In this document: piece after piece, positions 3,247 through 64,000 of the stretch | Layout of the letters: every line of letters begins with the position of its first letter | Position numbering within the stretch: the stretch's first letter is position 1 | NCBI GenBank assembly: GCA_027919835.1 | Contig: JANVFP010000006.1 | Location: 1,054,001-1,118,000 of the forward strand | Direction of reading: 5' to 3' | DNA from: Lentinula raphanica | Lineage: Eukaryota > Basidiomycota > Agaricomycetes > Agaricales > Omphalotaceae | Length of the DNA: 64,000 bases | Notes under the pieces: model-generated | Database searches by the model: none | Seen by the model: the letters and a program-made list of their open reading frames with translations, nothing else | Told to the model about the DNA's origin: nothing | Program-made: the position numbers and the translations under genes

Positions 3247-4420
3247 TCAACGACGCAAGGTAAAGGCCTTCACAGCGTCTGCCCTGATCCACTGCGAAAG
3301 ACGCGTCAACGGTATGGGCTTGTCGTGATCATCAACTTCGTGAGGAAAGTCGACGGCGGCGGACCCAGGTCCAGTCGGTCGAGAGAGTGTTTGTGATTCA
3401 CGGAAGCGTTCGATGAAACGCGATCCGCCGACAGGTTTACCACCTTTGACCTGGATATTGAGAGGAAGTGGCGGTAAAGGTGCGCTATCACGAACACCGG
3501 CAGAAGAAGCGGATTCGCTCGACCCATCAGTGCTGTCGGAGTATTCTCGTTTGATAGGGCCACGGAAAGGTGAGTCACGGCCGCGACGGACGTTCGTAGG
3601 TGCCCAGGGGGCTTTTTCGTTGTCAGAGATGGGATATCTAGCTTTACGAGCACCCGCGGATTCGATGTCGTCAAGATAACGAGTCCACGAGTCGGTTTCG
3701 AAACCAGGTAACTGACGGGGATTGCTGACATCTGAGGATTTCAGTCTTGAGTTGGTATAACCGAACCACTTGACCTGGCAAACAGGTTTGGTCCAGATCT
3801 CTTCTTCGTAGCGGGCATGAGTCATGGCCGACACGAACAGGACGAAGAAGTATCCAAGCATGGTTAGACTGGAGAGCCATGTCGTGGGTATCAGCAAGAA
3901 TGAGGACGCGGTGACGGATATGTCGGTGGTCTGTGTGATGAAGGCGGCTGCGCTGAGTGTTACGCCTATGGCAGCGCCAATGTGCGACAAGCTGAGCACA
4001 GCTGACCAACCAGACTCGAAAGCAACACTGGTACCGGCGAAGTTGGGTGCGAAGAGTTCCACAAGGCCACTGGAAATGGAGTTGAGTGGAAGAATTAGAA
4101 TTGTGAAGTTGATTCTTACAGTCCCAAGAAGAAGATGCTGACAACGGAGTTGAAGATTAGAAAAATGGATGCTCCAGGAACTGTCAGGCTCATGTGAGAA
4201 CTGGAGAAGAGGGAACGAATTGGATGGGAACATACGATGAAGATCGGCGTTTATGGCAGCACTCGCGTTCCACGACGCAAAAATCAAGTCAAGAAGATTC
4301 AAGAATGTCAAGAGTGCTACGTTGATGAAACAGGTTAGAATCTGTAGATGTGTAGCAAGTTTTGTACCACTCACAGAGGAATATGAATCGGATGATTAGG
4401 AATGGATTGCGCATGGTCAT
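3247..4420 (-). CDS. four-helix membrane protein with disordered C-terminal tail, hypothetical
   Basis: Starts at the ATG complementary to 4418-4420 (MTMRNPFLIIRFIFL). Three short introns are inferred from splice sites: GTGAGT donor near 4373, GTATGT near 4235, and GTAAGA near 4120. The joined exons give four hydrophobic segments: RFIFLSLLTFLNLLDLIF, ASIFLIFNSVVSIFFLGLGL, SLSHIGAAIGVTLSAAAFI and TTWLSSLTMLGYFFVLFVSA. A hydrophilic tail of about 170 residues follows, rich in Ser, Pro and charged residues (DDIESAGARKARYP, PLPPLPLNIQVKGG). The topology matches MARVEL-like or tetraspan proteins of mushrooms, but no catalytic motif is visible and I assign no function. It is convergent with the proton channel and divergent from the AAA ATPase at 4906. 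Confidence 0.65.
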
Positions 4421-56940: not shown

Positions 56941-58578
56941 GTAGAGTACTAAAGGACTGTAGTGAGCCCGAGCTGACAGTCAAACTTGTATCATGTTAAT
57001 GCCAGGACGTCAGATCCAGACAGGAAAACACATCCTGACGAATAATAAGAGTTTACACTCGAGTCCCTTGGTCGGGGAGTCCTTCAAGACAAAGCCACCT
57101 CTGATATGAGCTATCAAGGGATTATCAACTTAGTTTTCAACGTCTAACGGCCAACTGAGTATGATACTGCACCGAGACGAGCTTAGAACCAATAGATCTA
57201 TTCGTATTACCAGTGGGGATGGATTATTCAAGGCCCAGACTCAACAGATCTATTCACTTAGATCGAGTTTCGGGATGGATCAGGTCGCAGGAATGTGACT
57301 AAACGGAGAAACAACCAAAGTGTATCATCCCAGTTACATGTGGACGTTTCCTAAATGGGAAATAGACGCCTGAGATGTACAGCTTTGACCAGGAGTGTTG
57401 CAAGGGTAGATCTTTCGACTTCACCATTGTTAAACCTCTGGATCTATTCGATATATGCATATCGTTGGAAAGCTAGAAGCCAGACGAACCTATTGGGACA
57501 GGTTTCCCCCCTTTATATGTACTCCCATTCAGTTGGAGAGGCATACAACCGTTCACATAGCGGAATCAAATGAGGAAACGTTTGAGTTACCTGTGCAGGA
57601 GCTTATCCGTGCCCTTTAACCACCAGCATGTGGATGGACGCACAGACCAGGTCCGGATTCGAAGGTCAGGCAACTAGATCTCGACGAAGGACCACCAGAA
57701 ATGGACATTTTACTTGTTTTTATCCTTTTTACTCTCTGTTTCTCTGGTGTTTGTATCGTTTCTCGTCCTATCTTTCCTTATTTGTATCAGATCTCGGACT
57801 CCGTTCTCTCAAATCTATAGATCTATTCCATAAAATAGTAAATTGGCTACAGATCTATTCGTAGAAGTACTTAAGGACGTAGCCTACAAAAATATAGTTT
57901 AGGTTTTATGCCCATCTTTCTCTGACTAGCTAACCTTTGCCCTCATACGTGTGGGGTAAAGGCTTTGTAAGCCGGGCGGTCTTCAAAAGTGGTTGTGAAA
58001 TTCTCATCTCGTTGGGCCCGATATCTTGTCAGTTGATAAAGTCTCAGCTAGATTTGAATCGAAGGTAGACTCCTATCGTGGAGATACAGAGGGCTTGGTT
58101 CTCGGTTGTTCCAAGTGAGCGTTCAGAGTTTCGGTGGCTCTGTTCAAGCAGACGTGTGGTGATCGGTGATCCATACGAGCTGTGGAAGGTTTCCTGTGAT
58201 CGGTGATCAGTAGATCTTCAACCTGGTTCTGATAGTATTTGTGTGGTCATAAAGTCTGATCTATACGAGTTCTTTCGTTCCTTGTAAACCCTTTGAGTGG
58301 ATCACTCACCCCCTTCGAGTCCAGATCAAAAGATCTGTACTTCCGTGTCACTTCGCTCTGTTGACCTGTATTGCGGATCCAGTAGATCTTTTAAGACTAC
58401 CAGTTCGTTCTAAGGTATAAGATCGTGCGGAATCTCTGACAACGCCCCACACCTCGCTTAAATACATTTGACAAACGACATAAGAAGTATATTGGTGATC
58501 AGTGTTCAGTGATAAAGTCACTAGGTCATTAGATCTATCCAACGAAGCATTAAATTGCACCCTTCATATCCTCGTTAT
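56940..58578 (+). repeat. 5' LTR / leader of the gypsy element (left boundary uncertain)
   Basis: Non-coding stretch directly before the PBS. The motif [AG]GATCTATTC occurs five times, at 57194, 57246, 57440, 57819 and 57851. No convincing gene is present. Confidence 0.5.
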
Positions 58579-58597: not shown

Positions 58598-59034
58598 GTG
58601 GAATCTATATTTTGGAACGAACTCGAGAGATCTATCGATTTCTCAAACCATTGCCTTAGGTCGAACTTTGTTTGATCTTAAAAATAGCTCCAAGGGAGTC
58701 TCGGACGTCGAAGAACGCAGGTTCTTTAGATTACTTTGATCCAGAGGTGCAAGCCCCGGATAAAAGAAAACGTGTTACAAAGAAGCCTACGGTTCCTGTC
58801 TACGATCCGAAGAACCTCGGACGAGCAAAAAGCAATCCAGATAACGGGACTGCTGCTAGATCTGCTTCTGAAGTTCCAAGAACGAACAGATCTGGTGTAG
58901 TGCAAGGAAGCAGTAGACGTCAGGCAGTTACTGCTGAACCAGTCGATTTGACTAGTTTGAATCCTACATTACCAAACTCTATTTCTTTTGACTTGCAACG
59001 TATCGTGTTTGGGAACAGAATACCAAATATAACG

Positions 59035-60549
59035 ATGAGTACTACACAAAATGACCAAAATGCACAAGGTGCAAACGAGGCTCCAGTGGATATCCTCAAA
59101 CTGTTGGGACCTCCTGCGTTGTCTCCTGAAGAGCAAGGGGAATACAACAATGCGAAGTTCCCTGCCACTCATAAAACGGCTATGATCTTGGATCTATCTG
59201 ATCCGATCCAAATGCCTGAATGGATGAGGTTCTGTCTGACGACGTTCCAAGCCACGGGTGTGACCTCTGAAAAGGTGAAGATGCAAAGGATCTTTGGATG
59301 GATGACTCTCCAGACGAAGCAAGCCTTAGAGCATCTCCCTGGAGCGGAGGAGGGAAAGGAAGATGTAGATCAATTCCTTCGAGCCATGATTGAGCGGTTC
59401 CCGTCTATCTTTGGCAAACCCCTGGGTTCCAAGAAAGCTATGCTGGAATTGGTTCAGAGGTTTCGACCATTGAGAGTCGAGGATGGATCTGAGCTGTTGA
59501 TCTATTGTATGTTGTTCGAAGTCGAGGCCAATAAGTTGTTGAAACCGCCCCCGGCGATTGGAAACCATGAATTGGTGTCGGTCTTTCTATCAGCATTCGA
59601 TGGAAACCTGAGAAAAGCTGTCTCGAAACGAGTTCAGCATCAGGTCCCCAACTCGAAACTTGCGAAACGACGTACGGATGATCCATATACGTTCTCGGAA
59701 TGGAAAAGTGCTGCAGAGGCTGTGGCTAGGCAGCCCCCTCTCGAATCACTATACCAGACCTTTACTGGAACGGATGGAGCTGTCCTGAATGCAGAGACCA
59801 ACTCTAGGGGAGGGATCTATATTCCGGTGGTTACTCCAGCAGCTGCTAAAGAGGAAACGCCAGATCTGACCCGTTTCTTTGCTACAGACACTAGATCTAG
59901 TGTTAAGCAGGAACAGGCAGAGGACCATGAACGTGCCTTTGTGGAAAATGTGGACAAATCGTCGTTGATGCTCAAGGAAATGGGGAATCTTAAGACGCGT
60001 TTTCAGGATGAACTGACGTCGTTGCAGCAATTGCTCAATGATGTTAGGGCAGGAAAATCGGATGCTGGAATGCGACCCCAGCCCAGACCTGGCTTTTCTG
60101 GTAGTGGTAATCCCGGAACCAGTGGGCAGGGTCGAGGGATCCTTAATGTAAATCCCCCTCCAGGCCAAGGAATGCCAGATCGAACGTGTTTCTTGTGTCG
60201 AGGACCAGATCATATGATGAGTAACTGTCCTTTGTTCATGGAACTCCTTGGGAAAGGCTGGGTGATGCCGGAGTCTCAAGGATCCAAACGTCTTAAGCTG
60301 AAAGATGGATCTCCGTTACCAAATAACTTTGGTCCGGAAACTCGATACCAAAAGATCGTGAAATATGCTCAGAGCAAGAACTGGCCTGTTTTGGCGACGT
60401 TATACAATGATCTAATCCCCGATGAAGAGGATTATACAGATCAGTTGGGGGATCCTACTTGGTTGTACCTTGCCAACGTAGTTGAATCTTCCCAGGGGAG
60501 ATCTAGCAACAATGTTGCAACGGTGTACAGTAATGAGTCGGGAAACTAG
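59035..60549 (+). CDS. gypsy gag
   Basis: The capsid/nucleocapsid precursor. The first ATG is at 59035 (MSTTQNDQNAQG), but the same frame is open from about 58660 with a coding-like composition and no ATG, so translation may start upstream at a non-AUG codon. It has the gag helical core (FGWMTLQTKQALEHLPGAEE, ERFPSIFGKPLGSKKAMLEL) and a zinc knuckle CFLCRGPDHMMSNC (C-x2-C-x4-H-x4-C). It ends with TAG at 60547-60549, right after the slippery heptamer. Confidence 0.88.
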   Translation: MSTTQNDQNAQGANEAPVDILKLLGPPALSPEEQGEYNNAKFPATHKTAMILDLSDPIQMPEWMRFCLTTFQATGVTSEKVKMQRIFGWMTLQTKQALEHLPGAEEGKEDVDQFLRAMIERFPSIFGKPLGSKKAMLELVQRFRPLRVEDGSELLIYCMLFEVEANKLLKPPPAIGNHELVSVFLSAFDGNLRKAVSKRVQHQVPNSKLAKRRTDDPYTFSEWKSAAEAVARQPPLESLYQTFTGTDGAVLNAETNSRGGIYIPVVTPAAAKEETPDLTRFFATDTRSSVKQEQAEDHERAFVENVDKSSLMLKEMGNLKTRFQDELTSLQQLLNDVRAGKSDAGMRPQPRPGFSGSGNPGTSGQGRGILNVNPPPGQGMPDRTCFLCRGPDHMMSNCPLFMELLGKGWVMPESQGSKRLKLKDGSPLPNNFGPETRYQKIVKYAQSKNWPVLATLYNDLIPDEEDYTDQLGDPTWLYLANVVESSQGRSSNNVATVYSNESGN

Positions 60550-62036
60550 AGGATCCGATGATTGAGTCGAGCAAGGGACGAAAAACAAGATCCCAGCTGA
60601 AGGACACGACTCATGAGGATGAACCTAAGCCCCGTTCATTGAAAACTGTGCCTCCTACTAAGACAAAACGTTTTGATGGAGTGCACATACCCGTAGATCG
60701 AAATCACCCAAATTTTAAAAATGTTGCCAATCAATCCAAATCTGCTCCTGAACCATCCAATTCGAAAGATCTGAACGGAAAATCGAACAGATCCAATCAT
60801 TCATCAGGGGATGCTTCACTAGGGAAGTCGAGATCTGTTAGTGTCGAAGAGAAATCGGATAAAGAGGATTCTGATTCTGAAGTAGAATTAGTTGAGGAAA
60901 CTAGTGAGACCACTCGCAAAGTGCGTTTCAGGGAGCCCTCACCCCCTAGATCTGACGAAACACATCGACCTTTTGATCATGTCCCACCCAGGGAAGTGTC
61001 ACCCATACCTCGAAATCAACCAAAATCCAAACCGGAGAAGGTCACTGAATCTAAAGGATCTTCGAAGGGACCCAAATTTCGGCTTCGGAATGAATTATTC
61101 ATTCCAGGCCTTGAAGAAGAATTAGCTGATCGGATTTCTCGTCAAATGATCACATTGACGGCTGCTGAGGCATTCCAATTGTCAGGCAAAGTCAGGCAGA
61201 TCATGATGAGGAAGATGAAAAACCGCCAAGTGCGTCCACAAGAACGAATCAAGTCCTTTGTTAATGAGGCCCATGATGTTGAACCTAGTGTCGAGGAAAT
61301 CCCGAGAACAGGGATGGAGATGCAACAGTTCATTGCCGTGGAAGATCTCAGTCTGTCAGAAGGATTGATCTTTGAGAAAATACTCGAGGATCGAGATGGC
61401 ATGAAGGCAGGGGATTATGTTCAGTTGGATCCGGTGGTAGCTTTTCTTCATGATGTTGATGAAAATGATTCACGTCGTGATATGACTATAGTAGCCACTA
61501 TGGGAAATGGCTTAAGATCTGTGTGGCCAGTTGTGAATAATCGAGATGATCTAGACATCGAGAGTGTATTAGACTCTGGATCTCAGATTGTTGCTATCGA
61601 TATGTGTGTTGCCTTAGGATTAGGACTAGGTTGGGATCCGAAAGTGACCATCCAAATGCAGAATGTGCATGGAGGTCTGGCCCGTACCAAAGGACTGTCC
61701 AGGAACGTACCATTCCGATTTGGACCCATAACACTGTATCTACAATGCCATGTGCAGGAAAAGGCACCCTTCGAAATTCTGTTGGGTAGACCTTTCGATG
61801 TACTGACAGAAAGTGTCATCCATACGTTTGGATCTGGTGACCAAGAGTTAACCATAACAGATCCGAACACTGGAAAGCAGTACACCATAGGGACTAGTCC
61901 GAGAGGACAAAGTCCTAAAGCTCAAAAACGGCAGTTGGATAAGCAGAAGTATGCTCAGACTCGGACAGAGACTCCAGATCCAAATCAGGAGACCAGCCCC
62001 GAAGAAGAGGAGAAAACTGCTGAACCAAATTTTTAG
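60537..62036 (+). CDS. gypsy protease frame (retropepsin)
   Basis: Open from just after a TGA at 60534-60536, overlapping the gag end in the -1 frame; the first ATG is 60558. A long charged, disordered N-terminal part precedes a folded region (GPKFRLRNELFIPGLEEEL). The retropepsin site is VLDSGSQIVAIDMCVALG with the flap region RNVPFRFGPITLYLQCHV and ILLGRPFDVLTES, matching agaricomycete gypsy elements. It ends at TAG (62034-62036), immediately after the second slippery heptamer. Confidence 0.87.
   Translation, partial: VGKLEDPMIESSKGRKTRSQLKDTTHEDEPKPRSLKTVPPTKTKRFDGVHIPVDRNHPNFKNVANQSKSAPEPSNSKDLNGKSNRSNHSSGDASLGKSRSVSVEEKSDKEDSDSEVELVEETSETTRKVRFREPSPPRSDETHRPFDHVPPREVSPIPRNQPKSKPEKVTESKGSSKGPKFRLRNELFIPGLEEELADRISRQMITLTAAEAFQLSGKVRQIMMRKMKNRQVRPQERIKSFVNEAHDVEPSVEEIPRTGMEMQQFIAVEDLSLSEGLIFEKILEDRDGMKAGDYVQLDPVVAFLHDVDENDSRRDMTIVATMGNGLRSVWPVVNNRDDLDIESVLDSGSQIVAIDMCVALGLGLGWDPKVTIQMQNVHGGLARTKGLSRNVPFRFGPITLYLQCHVQEKAPFEILLGRPFDVLTESVIHTFGSGDQELTITDPNTGKQYTIGTSPRGQSPKAQKRQLDKQKYAQTRTETPDPNQETSPEEEEKTAEPNF
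60540..60613 (+). promoter_or_regulatory. predicted -1 ribosomal frameshift signal, gag/protease
   Basis: Heptamer GGGAAAC (60540-60546) read as G_GGA_AAC in the gag frame, directly before TAG. Four nt later GGATC (60551-60555) can pair with GATCC (60589-60593), and TGAGTCG (60563-60569) with CGACTCA (60607-60613). The order is that of an H-type pseudoknot. Confidence 0.62.
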
Positions 62037-62074
62037 ATAACCTCTGTGATCTGAGTAGCGATCAGGGAGAGGTT
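62027..62074 (+). promoter_or_regulatory. predicted -1 ribosomal frameshift signal, protease/pol
   Basis: Heptamer AAATTTT (62027-62033) read as A_AAT_TTT in the protease frame, directly before TAG. Spacer of 5 nt, then AACCTCT (62039-62045) pairs with AGAGGTT (62068-62074). Inside it, TGATC (62047-62051) pairs with GATCA (62060-62064) around an 8-nt loop. Confidence 0.68.
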
Positions 62075-64000
62075 GAAATCGCTGTGAGTGGGTATTGGGA
62101 TCCTTTAGGTGAAGAAGTAGTCATTGAGTCGACCAAAGTGAAAGAAGGAGTGTTCCAAGACGAAGAATTGGCCGAACTATATGTTAATTATAGCCAACCC
62201 TCGTTTAGGGATTCACTTCCTGAAGTCGCTGAAACCATAGATCTATACCTAAACAAAGGTGTGGACCATCAACAAAATCGTGTGATCAATCCTTGGAAGG
62301 AAGGATTTCGAACTGATCCGGACGTGGAACAACTTGAACGGTCATTTTATCAGTCTATTAAAGCTAAGAGTCTGACGAGAGACGTTCATGGGTTGTCCCG
62401 GCCAAGTGATTACACTTCAGATCTGGACCATGTAAGTCCAGATCAACCGGATAATTCCCAGTCCTACGACTTGAGGAGTGCCCGGGAACGAGTTCAATCG
62501 TGGGAACAAAAGAATGGAACATTTGAACAGCATATAGGCGCATATAGTGACCCAATGTCATCATATTCAAATGTATCTGTCTTCGGTTCTCGAAAATATA
62601 AGCCTGTTGCGTTGAAAGTACGCCCGGTTAAGGCTGAACTTCCTGAGGAATTTAGGGTTCGTCGTCATATCTTTGGAGATCCTTTGGAAGGATTGCCAGA
62701 TCTGCCGACTCATCCACCTGAATTCACTCCGGGAGTCCGATACACGCAAGAGCGTAAGGAGATTATTGACAAGAACCATCCAGAAGGATTCTTAACAAAT
62801 GAGGAACGAAAACTCGTTCATCATCTGATGAAGGTTCAGGAAATGGGTTTTGCCTGGGATCAATCCGAAGGTGGAACTTTCAGAGAGGATTTCTTCCCTC
62901 CAGTAAAGATTCCAGTTATACCTCACGAACCCTGGGTCGAGAAAAACATTCCCGTGCCTCCAGGAATCTTTCCTAAGGTTTGTAAGATAATCAAGGATAA
63001 GATCCTTGCAGGAGTTTACGAACCATCGAGTGCAAGCTACAGATCCAAATGGTTCTGTGTGGTGAAAAAGGATGGAACGAGCCTAAGATTGGTGCACAGT
63101 CTGGAGCCTTTAAATAAGGTTACTATACGGCACTCCGGGGTTCCCCCAGCTACTGCGGACATTGCTAGACACTTTGCAGGCAGAGCATGTGGAGGGATCT
63201 TGGATATCTTTGTGGGCTACGATGAGAGACATATAGACGTTGGATCTAGGGATCTCACCACTTTCCAAACTCCTTATGGACCACATCGTCTCGTCAAATT
63301 GCCTATGGGATGGACCAACTCGGTACCAATCTTCCATGACGATGTAACTTACTTGTTACAAGACGAAATTCCTGAATATACTATTCCTTACATTGATGAT
63401 GTACCTGTGCGAGGACCCGAGAGTCGATATGAGTTACCAGGTGGTGGATATGAAACCATTCCGGAAAACCCACAGATCCGTCGATTCGTATGGGAACATC
63501 TTCAAAACGTGAATCGGATCATCCAACGAATGAAGCATGCTGGAGGTACCTTCTCAGGACCTAAAGCCTTCGTTTGTTGTGAGGAAACCACAGTGGTTGG
63601 ACATCGTTGTGCCTATGAAGGACAGAAACCAGATGATAAGATCGCTACTACGGTCTTAACTTGGCCTAAATGCGAGACTCGAACACATGTGAGAGCTTTT
63701 CTGGGGACTGTTGGCCAGCTTCGAATGTTCATTCACAACTATTCCAAGAAAGCTGCCCCCTTGACTAAATTGACGGCAAATGTACCGTTTGAGTGGTCTG
63801 AGGAGCAGGATCTTGCTATGGAACTACTAAAGGAAGGAGTGCGAAATGCACCAGCCCTTAGAGTCATTGTTTATGATTGGGAAACACATCTATCAGTCGA
63901 TAGTTCATGGATGGGAACGGGATTTTACATTTATCAAGTAGATCCTAACGACCCTGAAAAGATCTATTACAATTACTTTGGATCTATTCCCTACGTGGAA
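62033..64000 (+). CDS. gypsy pol: reverse transcriptase and start of RNase H (cut by window edge)
   Basis: Continuous open frame to the right edge, with no ATG near its start, so it depends on the frameshift. A linker of about 250 residues comes first, then RT: ASYRSKWFCVVKKDGTSLRL, LDIFVGYDERHIDVGSRDLT, LPMGWTNSVPIF, the catalytic YIDDVPVRGP at about 63389, and GTFSGPKAFVCC. The connection follows with AFLGTVGQLRMFIHNYSKKA and PFEWSEEQDLAMELLKEGV, then the RNase H start. Integrase should lie beyond the window. Confidence 0.9.

Follow-up and report, generated by a model that had tools for sequence, protein, structure and literature searches.

Gag, protease and polymerase in three successive -1 frames, with a slippery heptamer at each junction, in a Ty3/gypsy retrotransposon of Lentinula raphanica

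The element and its two junctions

The stretch of DNA analysed here (hereafter the window) comprises 64,000 nucleotides of the basidiomycete Lentinula raphanica (contig JANVFP010000006.1, positions 1,054,001 to 1,118,000). Near its end lies a multi-copy Ty3/gypsy long terminal repeat (LTR) retrotransposon, which is present in more than 24 copies in the genome and inside which the window ends. In this element gag, protease (pro) and polymerase (pol) are encoded in three successive -1 frames, and the signals at the gag/pro junction (J1) and the pro/pol junction (J2) make it likely that these frames are joined by two programmed -1 frameshifts (Table 1).

The gag frame contains a CCHC knuckle (recognised by eye) and, while no Pfam family was matched, it matches the protein P0121 and Lentinula gene models. 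The pro frame harbours a retropepsin-like domain with the motif LDSGSQ (61548-61796), whose match to PF13650 (Asp_protease_2; E 0.00017, 22.7 bits) is slightly under the curated cut-off of 24.3. Along the element the Pfam matches follow one another as Asp_protease_2 (below cut-off), RT_RNaseH_2 (at cut-off), RT_RNaseH and Integrase_H2C2; the reverse transcriptase (RT) motif YIDD was recognised by eye in pol, and no Pfam RT domain is among the matches listed. The element thus has the domain order expected of Metaviridae, namely protease, RT, RNase H and integrase. Its nearest named proteins are those of Lentinula raphanica, and every named relative listed for protease and gag is fungal.

An initial annotation, made from the letters of the window alone, had proposed that gag ends in an in-phase G_GGA_AAC TAG, that the protease lies in the -1 frame and is open through this point, and that a second site at 62027 completes a three-frame gag-pro-pol layout with two -1 heptamers. 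This layout was borne out. At J1 the gag frame reads TCG GGA AAC TAG (60538-60549) and the -1 frame reads GGG AAA CTA GAG, which is open; at J2 the heptamer A_AAT_TTT abuts the pro stop. Both heptamers are in the phase of the upstream frame, with the downstream -1 frame open, and both are conserved in a diverged family (see below). The annotation also described G_GGA_AAC as highly efficient, in agreement with published lists that count G_GGA_AAC and G_GGU_UUU among the most shift-prone heptamers (PMC3542737, PMC5009743).

Canonical in-phase heptamers occur at 7 of the 1781 codon positions of the three frames. J1 and J2 account for two of these, and none of the remaining five (three in pro, two in pol) is found at a stop. 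Given this background of 5/1779, the chance of both junctions having a heptamer right before the stop is of the order of 1 in 100,000.

Table 1. Positions of the features of the element, numbered from the first letter of the window
Feature	Position	Strand	Remark
5' LTR (at least this part)	57400..58577	+	repeated at 100% identity 15,464 bp further downstream in the contig
gag frame	58660..60549	+	stop to stop, 629 codons; ATG at 59035; ends ESGN-stop
pro frame	60537..62036	+	-1 to gag, open, 499 codons
Slippery heptamer G_GGA_AAC (J1)	60540..60546	+	abuts gag stop
gag stop TAG	60547..60549	+	TGA in family B and L048
Helix P1, 5' arm ATCC	60553..60556	+	6 nt past heptamer
AUG in pro (-1) frame	60558..60560	+	8 nt past gag stop, in helix internal loop; same place in A, B and L048
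Helix P2, 5' arm TGAGTCG	60563..60569	+	both sides changed at 5 of 7 pairs, in one sequence or more
Helix P2, 3' arm CGACTCA	60607..60613	+	covariation
Helix P1, 3' arm GGAT	60617..60620	+	covariation
pol frame	62024..64000, on to 65872 past the window	+	-1 to pro, 1282 codons; RT, RNase H, integrase
Slippery heptamer A_AAT_TTT (J2)	62027..62033	+	abuts pro stop
pro stop TAG	62034..62036	+	TGA in family B
J2 stem, 5' arm AACCTCT	62039..62045	+	5 nt past heptamer
J2 stem, 3' arm AGAGGTT	62068..62074	+	pairs with AACCTCT

Conservation of the junctions among copies and clades

We searched the genome with the 221 bases around J1 as query, and scored and read the best 40 of 75 candidates. These comprise family A, with 27 copies at 98-100% identity (the window included), and family B, with 13 copies at about 73%; six more B copies were also read at J1, giving 19, and further B matches were left out of the counts. 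These six had been picked as possible new families and all turned out to belong to B. The J1 heptamer and its stop are intact in all 27 family A and all 19 family B copies read, and those at J2 in 22 of the 24 A copies with a complete stretch and in 13/13 B copies. Copies within one family are too alike to prove selection. The comparison of A with B is informative, since the proteases of the two families are 60% identical and 40% of the residues differ: between them both stops switch from TAG to TGA while both heptamers remain unchanged, 1487 nt apart in each. Aligning other copies, the check suggested by the initial annotation, thus found both the heptamer and the frame step conserved in the two families.

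Many copies are damaged, as expected if decay had separated the frames and the heptamers were coincidental. The complete arrangement (J1 and J2 1487 nt apart, with a pro frame free of stops) is found in 9/27 A and 6/13 B copies; it is absent from 18/27 A copies, 3 of these 18 being cut by a contig end, and from 7/13 B copies, and the rest have indels or stops. Decay nevertheless leaves it unexplained that both junctions are exactly alike in two diverged families whose stops have changed. The LTRs of the window copy are identical over 1178 nt, which indicates that this copy is young, and of the 292 protease residues conserved between A and B just 129 have the same codon, implying that the pro frame was translated. 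The decay reading is already contradicted by these observations, and we give it next to no credence. Among the variants, the heptamers of the family B copies L038, L046 and L047 are 1485 instead of 1487 nt apart, and in two of them, L038 and L047, pro is continuous in frame with pol. The locus L067, in which pro and pol share a frame, was considered as a separate subfamily and rejected as such: it is the place of the B copy L038, with its indel.

To place these families among the gypsy elements of the genome, we took 20 loci from 131 RT matches as family representatives, some of them damaged, and read 21 junctions. At 14 of the 21 a heptamer abuts a stop with the next gene in the -1 frame (8 with GGGTTTT or GGGAAAC and 6 with GGATTTT; one is L067, the B copy), and at five, those of L049, L050, L051, L056 and L065, there is no heptamer. 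One locus, L048, represents a third three-frame family, in which GGAAAAA abuts the stop at J1 and GGGTTTT is located 21 nt before the stop at J2. Beside the GGAAAAA, its gag stop overlaps a pro-frame AUG (positions 3426-3440 of the locus), forming AUGA, a restart motif of victoriviruses.

In an RT tree of 21 rows the three-frame elements (window, L048 and L067) form one clade with support of 100/99, elements with gag apart from a joint pro-pol frame form another, and elements with gag-pro apart from pol fall into two groups, an arrangement for which two layout changes suffice; the layout labels were assigned by us, L067 being the B copy in which an indel has fused pro to pol and L056 being damaged at the junction. 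Searches of the same genome with the L048 protease and with P0034 yielded no further three-frame family among the matches followed. Relatives whose gag and protease share a frame, named by the initial annotation as speaking against its reading, were found only in more distant clades with the junction elsewhere, and in no copy of the three-frame families read at J1.

The same comparisons bear on how pol is reached. Its first Met is 176 codons past J2 in the window and 208 in L048, and there is none in the pol frame within the stretch read of family B. With the first Met so far off and conservation running from the heptamer onwards, a separate start of pol near J2 is hardly conceivable.

We also compared relatives outside this genome, as proteins. 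Among the best 120 of 235 protease relatives, 11 of which are near-duplicates from Mycena citricolor, 117 have a Phe preceded by another residue (xF) in their last 15 residues, compared with about 27% expected. The pairs are DF (46), NF (35), GF (22), VF (8) and others (6), with D, N, G or V in 111; the three misses are P0003 and P0023, which are Lentinula gene models ending short of the pro end, and P0029, which is unexplained. As far as protein sequences alone can tell, these C-termini fit a pro/pol heptamer of the type R_RRU_UUY. With the gag of the window the search retrieved four proteins, three from Lentinula raphanica. With the gag of L048 it retrieved nine; one is partial and all eight full-length ones, including proteins of Lentinula aciculospora and Collybiopsis confluens, end in EK-stop, the end that a conserved G_GAA_AAA in L048-type gags would give. 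Searches of viral_contigs and of genome_contigs (prokaryotes), the later scans using 20 aligned proteases out of the 120 listed, gave no confirmed DNA match.

RNA helices at the junctions and the decoding of pro

For the J1 region we aligned 17 distinct stretches by sequence only (12 from family A, 4 from B and L048) and folded the alignment with RNAalifold. The program returned a nested two-stem helix, composed of ATCC/GGAT (P1) and TGAGTCG/CGACTCA (P2) with an internal loop between them, as well as three extra pairs involving the heptamer. Over P1 and P2, 98.4% of cells are paired and 7/11 pairs are changed on both sides; neither value is reached in any of 500 shuffles, and slid versions of the stems have at most 43.5% of cells paired. 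P2 reads TGAGTTG/CAACTCA in family B and TAGGGCT/AGCCCTC in L048, the latter with 6/7 pairs. Folded singly, the family A stretch is stabler than its shuffles (z -2.7 over 75 nt). The 6-nt spacer between heptamer and helix is within the usual 5-9 nt (PMC3542737, PMC5009743), so that the helix stands where it would be predicted to stimulate a shift.

The initial annotation had described an H-type pseudoknot at this site, made of GGATC/GATCC (60551-60555 and 60589-60593) interleaved with TGAGTCG/CGACTCA. Both pairings are present in the window, and the second is the conserved P2, with the compensatory changes that the annotation had called for. The first has no pair changed on both sides; it is broken in family B, one of its pairs (13-53 of the alignment) being broken in 5 of the 17 rows, and in 17/27 family A copies GGTCC replaces GATCC with the pairing retained through a G-U. 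We rejected the pseudoknot in favour of the nested fold, which was found under the limit that RNAalifold cannot draw pseudoknots. Downstream of J2, the pairing of a stem is for the most part retained in A, B and L048.

Several observations limit or weigh against the proposed double frameshift and need to be considered with it. Between A and B, 51-base windows are 0.80 identical around J1 and reach 0.90 after J2, compared with 0.64 overall, and values of 0.80 (61048-61098) and 0.88 (62238-62288) occur elsewhere too; part of the raised identity near the junctions is accounted for by protein conservation. Among conserved residues, identical codons are in modest excess past J2, where they account for 18 of the first 25 in pol (47% elsewhere; P about 0.01), and in slight excess on either side of J1 (8/12 for the last gag and 9/15 for the first pro codons; 49% overall). 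As to the helix, of the seven compensated pairs six owe the change on both sides to L048 only and one to B only, so that two comparisons carry the J1 covariation; the number of pair types is matched by 47/500 shuffles, P1 has only 4 pairs, the loop of P2 is 37 nt long, and folding of single sequences is not clearly stabler than that of shuffles in B (z -1.0) or L048 (z -0.4). The covariation of the J2 stem is equalled by 94/500 shuffles, and the GGAAAAA of L048 at J1 is no canonical heptamer. Finally, A, B and L048 all have an AUG 8 nt past the gag stop, placed as a site of reinitiation would be.

This AUG raises the possibility that at J1 ribosomes stop and then reinitiate 8 nt downstream to make a free protease, much as victoriviruses make their polymerase, with a -1 shift only at pro/pol. 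AUGA and UAGnnAUG restarts are known from fungal viruses (PMC3542737). The L048 gag stop overlaps an AUG as AUGA, and the first Met is aligned in 20/20 protease relatives of one alignment (20 of the 120 listed), a number to be read with the fact that gene callers start at Met. However, reinitiation leaves unexplained why the in-phase G_GGA_AAC is kept while the stop changes between A and B, and why a helix stands at the spacing of a frameshift stimulator. Published restart signals are located upstream of the stop (PMC3542737), whereas the covarying helix here is downstream, and an AUGA restart would require only the K of EK-stop, whereas the eight full-length relatives of the L048 gag keep EK. 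A restart may occur at J1, alone or beside slippage; as the sole route to the protease we consider it quite unlikely.

It has also to be asked whether splicing of a short intron brings gag and pro into a single frame without any frameshift. The Lentinula raphanica gene models P0019 and P0023 read as if about 74 nt (GTGTAC...CAG, 60523-60596) were removed, and P0003 as if 20 nt were removed, with boundaries inferred from the protein sequences. Both ends of the 74-nt stretch are kept in 40/40 copies, though spliced RNA would sometimes be copied back, and by eye no clear branch-point motif is visible in family A. An intron of 20 nt would be too short to be plausible, and family B does not retain its ends. 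Splicing would moreover leave the heptamer and its abutting stop unexplained. We consider an intron very improbable, and the three gene models that cross the gag/pro junction are probably annotation artefacts of a frameshift.

We favour two successive -1 frameshifts because they explain the phase and position of the heptamers, the changed stops, the spacing of the helix and the lack of a start codon for pol over the 176 codons past J2. Most ribosomes would stop at the gag stop and release Gag. A fraction, on meeting the two-stem helix 6 nt past G_GGA_AAC, would slip to GGG_AAA and enter the protease, and part of those would slip again at A_AAU_UUU, ahead of the second stem, and enter the RT and integrase, so that output would decrease from Gag through Gag-Pro to Gag-Pro-Pol. 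What the sequences show are the frames, the heptamers, their conservation with changed stops and the covariation at J1; that ribosomes slip, how often they do so and what the helices contribute is inferred. A wider proposal, which is speculative and on balance improbable, is that a large Agaricomycete Ty3/gypsy lineage independently reached a betaretrovirus-like double -1 gag-pro-pol with the same gag/pro heptamer, and that J1 is a dual switch at which slippage yields Gag-Pro and a restart at the AUG in the internal loop of the helix yields free protease.

Known systems and other gypsy elements of the genome

Retroviruses of the SRV group have A_AAU_UUU at pro/pol. Betaretroviruses (MPMV, SRV-1, SRV-2, JSRV, SMRV and HERV-K10) likewise have three frames and two -1 shifts, with G_GGA_AAC at gag/pro (PMC3835772). 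They differ from the element described here in lineage and host, which in our case are Ty3/gypsy and fungal, and in the element the heptamer abuts the gag stop; in addition, their stimulator is a compact H-type pseudoknot (PMC3835772), in contrast to the nested two-stem helix at J1. The J1 helix is closer in form to the stimulator of HIV-1 gag-pol, a two-stem helix rather than a pseudoknot (PMC3542737). HIV-1 differs in having a single shift, at the heptamer UUUUUUA (PMC3835772).

Among LTR elements of animals (Ty3/gypsy, from Drosophila and others), a 2003 survey found pol in the -1 frame in 28/51, many at classical heptamers (PMC5009743). In the available text of that source, such single-shift elements are described by gag versus pol only, with no mention of a separate protease frame (PMC5009743). 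Other fungal Metaviridae differ: Ty3 of Saccharomyces uses one +1 shift, and Tf1 and Tf2 of Schizosaccharomyces have a single open reading frame (ORF) (PMC7175516). The profile of Metaviridae by the International Committee on Taxonomy of Viruses lists gag-pol, gag and pol, or gag, pol and env, with the protease encoded in pol (PMC7879559), and a mycovirus review gives the family a single ORF. The element does not follow this layout, its protease being in a separate frame, which is a departure from Metaviridae in layout and not in descent. In the openly licensed literature searched we found no description of a gypsy element, fungal or otherwise, that uses two -1 shifts.

If the proposed decoding is true, the double -1 shift and the separate protease gene are not peculiar to beta- and deltaretroviruses, and fungal Ty3/gypsy elements reached them too; some current gene models of such elements would then join frames through non-existent introns. 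One genome with clades in which gag, pro and pol are all separate, in which gag-pro is apart from pol, and in which gag is apart from pro-pol forms a natural series in which to study how frameshift sites change place from one gene to another, and the same series bears on what sets the ratio of Gag, protease and polymerase. HIV-1, with its single shift, has pro and pol in one frame.

The sister clade L049-L051 of the same genome, 53-54% identical in RT, likewise has pol displaced from gag-pro. It differs in that gag and pro are in one frame and the junction has no classical heptamer, a hairpin being followed by an in-frame ATG. In L049 (4909-4981), L050 (4843-4918) and also L051 (reverse strand), gag-pro ends in TAA, which is followed by a long hairpin and, 58-62 nt past the gag-pro stop, by ATGGAGTTCGA in the pol frame. 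The gag-pro and pol frames of L050 and L051 do not overlap, and a frameshift alone can therefore not join them. The hairpin brings to mind the stem-loop junction of plant sireviruses.

In a distant gypsy clade (L057-L064 and L066) GGGTTTT or GGATTTT is found right before TGA, a single-shift signal. The alignment of eight of these GGRTTTT loci, which leaves out L062 (misaligned) and L065 (no heptamer), contains an 11-bp stem 6 nt downstream, with 90.9% of cells paired and 3 pairs changed on both sides; 12/500 shuffles are as high.

The element as a whole is at least 16.6 kb long. Its 5' LTR matches the downstream copy at 100% in two overlapping pieces (57400-57950 with C6:1126864-1127414, and 57900-58577 with C6:1127364-1128041). 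No 3' LTR came up when the window was compared with the 6.5 kb that directly follow it, because that LTR is farther off. Up to about 7 kb separates the end of pol from the 3' LTR (represented by L068 1974-6501, equivalent to window positions 65873-70400), and this stretch contains antisense open frames of 179 aa (L068 5296-5835) and 221 aa (L068 5836-6501).

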